Assembly (NCBI RefSeq): GCF_003001995.1
Contig: NZ_PVNB01000003.1
Location: forward strand, 62,001-126,000
Reading direction: 5' to 3'
Length of the DNA: 64,000 bases
DNA from: Orenia metallireducens
GTDB lineage: Bacteria; Bacillota; Halanaerobiia; Halobacteroidales; Halobacteroidaceae
Shown here: positions 10,340-21,301 of the stretch, piece after piece
Layout: each line of letters starts with the position of its first letter
Numbering within the stretch: the first letter of the stretch is position 1
Made by a program: the position numbers and the translations under genes
Notes under the pieces: model-generated
What the model saw: only the letters and a program-made list of their open reading frames with translations
Told to the model about the DNA's origin: nothing
Database searches by the model: none

Positions 10340-10849
10340 TTATCTATCCACCTCCTTAAGTTCTTTAAAGATTTTATTATTCTCAAATATTCTCACTAGC
10401 AGATACCCTATAAAGCTTCCTCCAATTGTACTTACTAAAAAAGGTATTACAAAGAAGAAAGCCATTATCTCCTTGCCCATTAGAAATTTTGCAATAGGAT
10501 ACGAAAACAATCCCCCTAAGATACCTGTTCCAAAAACCTCTCCACCAATAGTATAGAATCTATTAGCGGTCTTTTTGAATAAAACCCCTGCTAGAAAAGC
10601 ACCTATCATACTACCTGGAAAGGCCAATAAAGAACCAACCCCCAAAATATTTCTAAGCAAAGATATAACAAATGCATTTAATACAGCATATCTTGGACCT
10701 AAAAATATAGCTGATATGATATTAATAGCATGTTGAACAGGAAAACACTTTGCAATCCCGACAGGTATATAAATTAAGTGCCCTGTCATCGTCCCTATAG
10801 CCACCAATAATGCAGAAAAGGTAAGTCTTATTGTTTTAATGATATTCAC
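10340..10849 (-). CDS. thiW: thiazole-specific ECF transporter substrate-binding component ThiW
   Basis: A 169-residue membrane S component of an energy-coupling factor transporter, thought to import the thiazole precursor used by ThiM. It has about five hydrophobic segments and the ThiW/ThiT-like blocks PVGIAKCFPVQHAINII, LGPRYAVLNAFVISLLRNILG and LAFPGSMIGAFLAG. It is the first gene of the operon, directly under the TPP riboswitch, with thiD and thiM next, which supports thiazole uptake. The ATP-binding and T components must be encoded elsewhere. Confidence 0.9.
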   Translation of the reverse strand: MNIIKTIRLTFSALLVAIGTMTGHLIYIPVGIAKCFPVQHAINIISAIFLGPRYAVLNAFVISLLRNILGVGSLLAFPGSMIGAFLAGVLFKKTANRFYTIGGEVFGTGILGGLFSYPIAKFLMGKEIMAFFFVIPFLVSTIGGSFIGYLLVRIFENNKIFKELKEVDR

Positions 10850-18604: not shown

Positions 18605-18703
18605 CTTTATAACCTCCTTCTATAAATTCAAATCATTTATATTATTAGTTAAACCACTTTAAAATATTCTAAGTAATTTAAACAAATTCACAAGAACCAA
18701 TAA

Positions 18704-18735
18704 AAGGCATACTCAAAATTGAGTATGCCTTTCAC
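18704..18735 (-). terminator. terminator after mreB
   Basis: AAAGGCATACTCAA/TTGAGTATGCCTTT stem, followed by TTATTGG on the minus strand, 70 bases beyond the mreB stop. A U-run exists in both directions. Confidence 0.8.
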
Positions 18736-18804
18736 TTTATATATTAGATTGAAATAATATGTAATAATTTTAATTTATAAATCTCTAATAAAAAACTCCA
18801 TAAC

Positions 18805-19866
18805 TTAATTAAATTTAGAACCAACTAAAAAACTCTCAAATTTATCTAAGCTCTCTAAGACTTTACCTGCACCTAAAGCAATACAGTCCAAAGGATTATC
18901 ATCCAAATAAACAGGAACACCTAATTCTTGAGATAATAAATAATCTAAACCCTTCAATAGAGATCCTCCTCCAGCCATAATAATGCCTTTGTCCATAATA
19001 TCACCTGATAATTCAGCAGGAACTTCTGATAAAACATCTTTGACCCCCACAATAATTTGCTTAACTGTATTTTTTAAAGCATCTTGAATTTCTTTACAAT
19101 CAATCTCAATTACCTTAGGTAAACCATCAATTAAATCAACTCCCCGAACAACAACTTTAGTAACTTCTGTTATTTGGGAGCTATTAGGAAAACAAGCTGA
19201 TCCAAAATTCATCTTAATTTCTTCAGCCCTATTTTCCCCAATTAATATATTATAACTGTTTTTTAAATAACTTATAATCGCCTCATTCATTTCATCACCA
19301 GCAACTCTAATAGAATTACTAGTTACAATTCCACCTAAAGAAATTACTGCTATATCTGTTGTTCCACCACCGATATCAATAACCATACTCGCCGTCGGTT
19401 CATTAACTGGTAAATTAGCACCTATAGCTGCAGCTACAGGCTCTTCTATTAAGTAAATCTCTCTAGCTTTCGCCTCTAAAACCACATCAATTACTGATTT
19501 TTTTTCTACTTTAGTTATTCCAGAAGGAATAGATATAACAATTCTAGGACTAACCAATTTTTTTCTCTTATAGATTTTAGTAATAAAATATCTTAACATT
19601 TTTGCTGTCATTTCAAAGTCTGCAATCACACCATCTTTTATAGGTCTAACTGCTAAAATATTATTTGGTGTTCTACCTATCATTCTTTTAGCCTCATTGC
19701 CAATTGCTAACAAATCATTTTTTGATTTACTATTTTTTTGAATAGCAACAACAGAAGGTTCTCTAATAAATATTCCATCCTTTTTAGTATAAACTAATGT
19801 ATTAGCTGTTCCTAAATCTATAGCTAAATCTTTTCTAAATAAACTATTAAATAAATTTAGTAAAAT
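18805..19866 (-). CDS. mreB: MreB-family actin-like cell-shape protein, apparent AUU start
   Basis: Membrane-associated actin homologue guiding lateral wall synthesis. The frame codes for a normal 353-residue MreB only if it starts upstream of 19713: the phosphate-1 loop DLAIDLGTANTLVY and REPSVVAI lie at 19714-19850. The rest carries RMIGRTPNNI, VISIPSGITKVEKK, MVIDIGGGTTDIAVISLGGI and IIMAGGGSLLKG. No ATG, GTG or TTG is in frame before these; the best candidate is ATT at 19864-19866, five bases after GAGGGGGGG. The nearest conventional start (TTG at 19713) would delete the nucleotide-binding loop. It could be MreB, Mbl or MreBH; no mreC or mreD is nearby. Confidence 0.88.
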   Translation of the reverse strand: MLLNLFNSLFRKDLAIDLGTANTLVYTKKDGIFIREPSVVAIQKNSKSKNDLLAIGNEAKRMIGRTPNNILAVRPIKDGVIADFEMTAKMLRYFITKIYKRKKLVSPRIVISIPSGITKVEKKSVIDVVLEAKAREIYLIEEPVAAAIGANLPVNEPTASMVIDIGGGTTDIAVISLGGIVTSNSIRVAGDEMNEAIISYLKNSYNILIGENRAEEIKMNFGSACFPNSSQITEVTKVVVRGVDLIDGLPKVIEIDCKEIQDALKNTVKQIIVGVKDVLSEVPAELSGDIMDKGIIMAGGGSLLKGLDYLLSQELGVPVYLDDNPLDCIALGAGKVLESLDKFESFLVGSKFN

Positions 19867-19976
19867 ATTAACCCCCCCTCTTAGAAAAGTATTAATATTT
19901 TCTTATTAATGACTTATAAATTAATATAAGAAATTTACATAATTATAATAGCAAAGACCTTTATAGGTTCAGATAT

Positions 19977-21089
19977 CTATAACCCTATTCTATTAAAATT
20001 TATTAAATTAAGCTCACTCCTATCATCTAAATCTTGATGACCATAAAGCTCTTTAGCAGATTTAATCAAATCAGCTGCATTTATAGTATTTAAAAAATCA
20101 CTAATATCATTTGGATAATCGTCTTTTTCAGTAGCTAAAATAAGTTGCTTAATCCCTTCTTTACCTAACTTTAATAGTGCTTGACAGGTATTATTTCTAA
20201 CTACCACATTCTCGTCTCTAAGCATTTTATCTAAATAGAAAATAGCTTCTGTATTACCTAGATTTCCTAATAAACTAACTATTTCCGCTCTAACCTCATA
20301 ACTAGTATCATTAAGCTTGTCCACCAATACTTCAAACACTTCCACTGATTTAAACTTAGATAACCCTATAGCTGCTACTACTCTTATTTTTGCTTTTTTA
20401 TGATTATATAGCAAATCCATAAAGGGCTTAATTACTCGTTCATCAGATAACTTAGTCAATAACTTCACTGCCCATTTTACATGAATATCATTATCTGAAT
20501 CTAACAATCTTAATAATTCTGAGACTCCTCGATCTCCAATTCTCAAAAATGCTAATCTCAACTCCTCTAAAATTACCATATCATCACATTCTTCTAAATA
20601 ATTAATTAATATAGTTATAACTATATTATCTTTTATTTCTGATAAACCTTTTATTATTGTAATCTTAACCTCTTTATCTTCATCATAAAGTAAACAAGTT
20701 ACATAATTAATTGCTTGTGATGTACCAATATTTAATAGAGTAAGCCCAGCCTTTTTTCTATTTTTTATATCATTCTTACTTGATAACTCCATTAATAGTT
20801 TTTTTAGTAGTTTATCATCAACCAAATAATCTTTAACCGTTAGATAATCACTTATATATAAGTCTTTTTTACCATAATTAATCAAATCCTGTTTAATATC
20901 AAGGTTATCTAATTTATCCAATTCTTTTAAAGCTTTCTTTAAATCATTTTTTATTAACTTAGTAAAATAATTATAATTCTTAACTCGAAACCTTTTAATA
21001 ATTAAAATTATTACTATAATAAATATAATTATTAAAACATAGTCATAGAAATTACTTATATTTTGAATTAATGACTTTAAAGTTAGAAT
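19977..21089 (-). CDS. HEAT-repeat protein with N-terminal membrane anchor, apparent AUU start
   Basis: About 370 residues. The C-terminal two thirds hold six or more HEAT/PBS-type helical repeats (VRAEIVSLLGNLGNTEAIFYL, VVRNNTCQALLKLGKEGI), a protein-binding scaffold. Reading the frame upstream of the first conventional start (TTG at 20921) adds 56 residues with a membrane helix VLIIIFIIVIILIIK and a basic stretch, up to a TAA at 21108-21110. There is no ATG/GTG/TTG in this part; an ATT at 21087-21089 lies seven bases after AGGGAGGG. It precedes mreB on the same strand, so a role in wall synthesis or sporulation is possible. Confidence 0.75.
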   Translation of the reverse strand: MLTLKSLIQNISNFYDYVLIIIFIIVIILIIKRFRVKNYNYFTKLIKNDLKKALKELDKLDNLDIKQDLINYGKKDLYISDYLTVKDYLVDDKLLKKLLMELSSKNDIKNRKKAGLTLLNIGTSQAINYVTCLLYDEDKEVKITIIKGLSEIKDNIVITILINYLEECDDMVILEELRLAFLRIGDRGVSELLRLLDSDNDIHVKWAVKLLTKLSDERVIKPFMDLLYNHKKAKIRVVAAIGLSKFKSVEVFEVLVDKLNDTSYEVRAEIVSLLGNLGNTEAIFYLDKMLRDENVVVRNNTCQALLKLGKEGIKQLILATEKDDYPNDISDFLNTINAADLIKSAKELYGHQDLDDRSELNLINFNRIGL

Positions 21090-21268
21090 AATAACTCCCT
21101 CCCTTTTTTATGAAATTTATATTATATTATTAGCTAAAAGGACATTTAATCCTTTTTATAAGCAAAATTCTCATCTTTTTGATAAAAATATTAATAAAAC
21201 ACATTGAAACCAAAAATCACCATCACCCTAGCAACAAGATATAATTTAAAATTTGTATTAATTTATAG

Positions 21269-21301
21269 AAAAACCCCCACTAAATTTAGTAGGGGTTTTG
21301 G
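21269..21301 (-). terminator. terminator after the NusG-domain-II gene
   Basis: AAAACCCCCACTAAAT/TTTAGTAGGGGTTTT, a strong GC stem flanked by A and T runs, 65 bases after the stop codon. Confidence 0.85.

Follow-up and report, generated by a model that had tools for sequence, protein, structure and literature searches.

Probable AUU start codons in a second mreB copy and a HEAT-repeat gene of Orenia metallireducens, and candidates for a wider set of AUU, AUC and AUA starts

Two adjacent genes on the minus strand of the Orenia metallireducens stretch analysed here (64,000 nucleotides, called the window in the following) raise the question where translation starts when conserved N-terminal codons precede every canonical start codon. 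Gene finders exclude AUU starts, and to our knowledge these have been regarded as an oddity that a genome shows in one or two genes. The first-pass annotation had proposed that both genes, a second mreB copy (mreB2) and a gene for a HEAT-repeat membrane protein (HEAT-A), start at AUU, and all coordinates and sequences on which this proposal was built turned out to be correct. The relevant features are:

18805 to 19866, minus strand: mreB2, second MreB copy, 353 codons read from ATT, recognized by NCBIfam MreB models
19864 to 19866, minus strand: putative AUU start codon of mreB2, the sole in-frame codon linked to a Shine-Dalgarno sequence (SD) that precedes the phosphate-1 loop
19872 to 19880, minus strand: SD GAGGGGGGG of mreB2, stacking energy -14.0 versus the anti-SD
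19977 to 21089, minus strand: HEAT-A, HEAT-repeat membrane protein, 370 codons read from ATT, Pfam HEAT_2 91 bits
21087 to 21089, minus strand: putative AUU start codon of HEAT-A, with an alternative ATT at 21090 to 21092; ATT also in the relatives G005, G006 and G007
21095 to 21104, minus strand: SD AGGGAGGGAG of HEAT-A, stacking energy -13.6, aligned spacing 5 nt

The mreB2 frame opens after a TAA at 19903-19905 on the minus strand, and its first ATG, GTG or TTG is the TTG at 19711-19713, 51 codons past the ATT at 19864-19866. The phosphate-1 loop DLAIDLGTANTLVY is encoded within these 51 codons, as had been claimed, and the ATT is indeed found five bases past GAGGGGGGG. The best register of this SD has a spacing of 2, and the G7 run makes other registers possible. 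The product is a full-length MreB including the phosphate-1 motif, and the NCBIfam MreB models score 476 and 472 bits on residues 8-345, above the cut-off. The canonical mreB of the same genome is encoded on another contig (C11) and starts with ATG; by eye, the start typical of canonical MreB, ATG GTA ATG AAT, matches ATT TTA CTA AAT of mreB2. A scan of genome contigs for MreB yielded distant MreBs only. The sole mreB2 orthologue (67%) is present in G001, a genome of the same genus. Its start is a GTG, which in the alignment follows the ATT of the window by one codon. Conservation of the ATT is therefore lacking in this orthologue, which counts against an AUU start. The stretch before the TTG is 69% identical between the copies of the two genomes, compared to 67% elsewhere, and its third positions change about 2.8 times as often as the first and second positions.

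The HEAT-A frame opens after a TAA at 21106-21108, also on the minus strand, and the first canonical codon, the TTG at 20919-20921, follows 56 codons past the ATT at 21087-21089. The assertion that these 56 open codons encode a membrane helix and are not preceded by a usual start was verified, the N-terminus being a hydrophobic helix, and the ATT lies seven bases past AGGGAGGG as described. Since another ATT (21090-21092) stands immediately before it, the exact start codon is ambiguous by one; the usual spacing is obtained with the downstream ATT of the tandem at 21087-21092.

HEAT-A orthologues are found in the congener G001 and in G005, G006 and G007, three further genomes of the same family. 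The gene begins with ATT TCA TAT in G005, with ATT TCT TTT in both G006 and G007, and with ATG TCA TAC in G001, so that four of the five genomes have an AUU start. In G005 the frame contains zero canonical codons from the upstream stop to residue 24. The protein segments before the first TTG are less similar than the remainder (46% versus 55% identity), and the membrane helix is kept. Two observations count against the AUU start. In G006 and G007 an in-frame GTG is located inside the SD (AAGGGGTG) and would be chosen by a gene caller, and in the five-way alignment the ATT of the window lies about four residues upstream of the start position of the relatives. Therefore, the codon type is shared, while its position has slightly moved. 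The alignment of both starts in relatives, which the first-pass annotation had suggested as a check, thus favors the AUU for HEAT-A, with ATT in three relatives and ATG in G001. For mreB2 it gives a mixed picture, as the ATT matches the first ATG of canonical MreB by eye and the orthologue has its GTG one codon later. An ordinary ATG at the aligned codon of a relative had been named as an argument against AUU. The G001 HEAT gene has such an ATG, yet the AUU start stands, because ATT occupies this codon in three other genomes, because SD-linked AUU, AUC or AUA (AUH) codons show a strong in-frame enrichment, and because the exchange of ATG and ATT recurs in other genes of the same genome.

All ATG, GTG and TTG codons within 130 nt upstream of both genes, irrespective of the frame, meet a stop before the ATT is reached, and therefore the two frames are explained neither by an indel in the G7 run nor by frameshifting from a start located shortly upstream. 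The codons ahead of the first TTGs are coding, and the pattern is not a chance effect. The presence of a canonical mreB paralogue and of a G7 run within the mreB2 SD would be compatible with a sequencing error, a frameshift or pseudogenes, i.e., with a normal start lost by an indel or with genes in decay. However, the frames are intact across 353 and 370 codons, the changes are concentrated in third positions, and the AUU of HEAT-A recurs in independent genomes, so that this explanation is largely refuted and in our view very improbable. Translation might also start at a downstream TTG or ATG and yield shorter proteins, and the TTGs at 19713 and 20921 are what standard gene finders would call. 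Such an MreB would be devoid of its first nucleotide-binding motif and such a HEAT-A of its membrane helix, the residues upstream of these codons are conserved, and the best SD energies of the downstream codons are only -5.6 and -2.9, while the ATTs reach -10.9 and -11.7 on the same scale; we thus regard internal starts as highly unlikely as well. In contrast to both alternatives, an AUU start is in agreement with the conservation of the coding sequence that precedes all canonical starts and with the SD at normal spacing to the AUU, which were found for both mreB2 and HEAT-A. The SD energies of -14.0 (mreB2) and -13.6 (HEAT-A) compare with a median of -12.1 for the ATG genes of these genomes. 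The presence of AUU starts is well supported by the sequence and by the relatives, which carry the same AUU for the HEAT gene. It is thus very probable that HEAT-A and mreB2 are intact genes that are translated from AUU and belong to a broader set of genes with AUH starts.

The first-pass annotation had also considered it striking that two such starts occur in a row in possible partners. The two genes are flanked by intrinsic terminators:

21270 to 21299, minus strand: intrinsic terminator between a NusG_II gene and HEAT-A, a hairpin of 13 pairs with a T run behind it, -20.5 kcal/mol including flanks
18699 to 18736, minus strand: intrinsic terminator after mreB2

This arrangement suggests that HEAT-A and mreB2 may form one transcription unit. 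A partnership is not supported by the gene order in the relatives, and the two genes are adjacent in none of them. G001 has kept the order hydrolase, NusG_II, mreB2 and coat proteins without HEAT-A, which is located on another contig, and in G005, G006 and G007 HEAT-A resides near glycogen-metabolism genes. With AUH starts in about 1.5% of the genes, one adjacent pair per genome is close to the chance expectation. In G006 and G007, HEAT-A follows closely after a cluster of tRNA genes, the initiator tRNA among them (L142 6907-7553; L144 872-1479).

A third gene with a putative AUU start was found in the window:

10340 to 10840, minus strand: thiW, ATT at 10838 to 10840, TIGR02359 167 bits
10846 to 10853, minus strand: SD AGAGGTGA of thiW, energy -14.4, aligned spacing 5

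In an alignment free of gaps, 12 relatives have ATG at this codon, and G007 has ATC. The thiW SD contains an in-frame GTG, which standard gene finders would call as the start.

The scan for AUH starts comprised 888 kb of the 4.1 Mb of this genome, 424 kb of G001, 425 kb of G005, and 200 kb each of G011 and G019, and it selected genes in which the SD-linked start is AUU, AUC or AUA and the canonical starts have a much weaker SD. In this genome, 12 candidates were obtained among the 647 genes sampled, and the number of AUH starts is put at about 10-12. Nine of them are supported by homology (infC, yycJ, ybjQ, a PHP hydrolase gene, thiW, genes for a DeoR and a PadR regulator, HEAT-A and mreB2), and in others signal peptides or membrane segments begin at the AUH codon. 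G001 adds kptA, with a likely AUA start after a strong SD (L197, plus strand, 2608), a TetR regulator gene, with a likely AUC start after a strong SD (L208, plus strand, 6913), and a gene for a DUF58 protein, while G005 adds infC, a gene for a PilC-type protein, spoIIIAF and HEAT-A. A further likely AUC start after a strong SD belongs to a lipoprotein gene (L186, minus strand, 9992). The frame specificity was controlled with strong SDs of genes that have no good canonical start: at the allowed spacing, 26 of 61 in-frame codons were ATH, while the two remaining frames gave 7 of 65 and 3 of 59. A looser scan that included internal AUH codons was uninformative, as its out-of-frame counts nearly equalled the in-frame counts. 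The aligned spacing is 5 nt in 10 of 17 curated AUH cases; the genomic peak for ATG genes is 4. Judged from the sampled stretches, about 1-2% of the genes of this organism probably use AUH starts.

In thiW, yycJ, ybjQ and infC of this genome the use of AUH is unambiguous, and their orthologue series differ in how constantly the codon is kept. The metallohydrolase gene yycJ has an AUH start in all 15 genomes examined of three families of this class (f1, f2 and f4; L301-L321), its third base being T, C or A, and never G, and the codon is usually preceded by AAGGAGATGATT or a closely similar sequence. In this genome (ATT) and in G001 (ATC) a TAA separates the ATG inside the SD from the AUH codon, so that only the latter is left as a start. 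In three other families the yycJ codon is ATG or TTG. The infC gene starts with ATT in this genome and with AUH throughout the genomes compared; ATT is likewise the start of infC in Bacillus subtilis (PMC6097659). Three congeners have ATT or ATA in ybjQ, where other genomes have ATG or TTG, and the PHP hydrolase gene has ATT in two congeners and ATG in G004. In several full-length NCBIfam models the family methionine is at the AUH codon or one to two residues from it.

Mechanistically, the initiator tRNA would decode the AUU codons at 21087-21089 and 19864-19866 by imperfect pairing, and a strong, normally spaced SD helix would keep the codon in the P site. The outcome would be a low level of translation, which, by analogy with other bacteria, might be restrained by IF3. 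AUU and AUA starts with an extended SD yield about 10-30% of the AUG output in Staphylococcus aureus (PMC13009471), and in Streptomyces IF3 represses sigR at its GTC start (PMC5472188). Based on these outputs and on the repression of non-canonical starts by IF3, a low and possibly IF3-sensitive expression of the AUH genes is likely, and control by IF3 can reasonably be inferred from infC and sigR. An altered initiator tRNA was considered as the cause of the AUH starts and rejected, because the initiator tRNA of this genome is ordinary; its IF3, judged by eye, is ordinary-looking, too.

The weak starts might even have been selected as regulatory elements, with a low output tied to free IF3 as for infC and sigR. 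In yycJ and infC the AUH codon is kept although its third base drifts, which argues for such a selection in some genes, and the AUU of HEAT-A in four of five genomes, the repression of sigR and the presence of regulators among the AUH genes (IF3, DeoR, PadR, TetR) point in the same direction. In contrast, the exchange of AUH with ATG in other genes argues for tolerance, as the ybjQ, PHP hydrolase and thiW codons are ATG or TTG in near relatives and look like tolerated drift, and the ordinary appearance of IF3 and initiator tRNA also speaks against selection. On balance, we assign selection slightly less than an even chance. The chances are about even for the wider proposal that the lineage routinely starts 1-2% of its genes at AUU, AUC or AUA, that yycJ, infC and HEAT-A have kept such starts for long, and that they belong to a lowly expressed, possibly IF3-tuned set hidden from standard annotation, in part through the calling of an in-frame GTG or ATG that lies within the SD.

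Individual AUU starts with a strong SD are already known. The infC genes of Escherichia coli and B. subtilis have AUU after a strong SD, as has infC of this genome, but they represent one autoregulated gene, in contrast to the many unrelated genes found here. The S. aureus genes cvfC1, ccpN, citZ and infC (PMC13009471) resemble the present set in having AUH, a strong or extended SD near the start and conservation in relatives; these are four cases, mapped in S. aureus, compared to about 1-2% of the sampled genes here, which are predicted from sequence. Borrelia pncA (PMC13398362) also encodes functional N-terminal residues upstream of its annotated start, and for this single gene the AUU was proven by biochemistry and structure. 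For Streptomyces sigR (PMC5472188) a weak start has likewise been proposed to set expression; there, IF3 dependence was shown for a GTC codon, which differs from the codons discussed here. An AUH-start set of such a size was not found in the literature searched, and extensive, gene-conserved use of AUH appears to be unreported. If 1-2% of the genes indeed start in this way, many database proteins of the lineage would be truncated, such as an MreB that lacks its first nucleotide-binding motif, and others would have been given a false start inside the SD. In addition, yycJ, thiW and HEAT-A would then offer ready test cases for a direct test of whether IF3 controls a set of genes and not only itself.

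Acetoanaerobium noterae and a Lachnospira eligens replicon served as control genomes from other Firmicutes. AUH starts were assigned to 16 of 1230 genes in the lineage and to 4 of 821 genes in the two controls (Fisher p 0.05; mean out-of-frame count 5.0), and an enrichment in the lineage is thus only suggestive. Some of the control matches look like artefacts and others like real AUU starts. By eye, a normal ATG closely precedes three of the four Acetoanaerobium matches listed; the match in Lachnospira is infC. Likely AUU starts were also found for a topoisomerase gene (L400, plus strand, 36035) and a peptidase gene (L413, plus strand, 12061) of A. noterae, a member of the Clostridia, which suggests that AUU starts may have been overlooked beyond this class. 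A trait specific to the lineage is no more likely than a general under-annotation of AUH starts in SD-rich low-GC bacteria. The A. noterae sequence (NZ_CP154629.1, 2.63 Mb) is filed as a plasmid, but it is chromosome-like in size and content, with infC and hundreds of genes.
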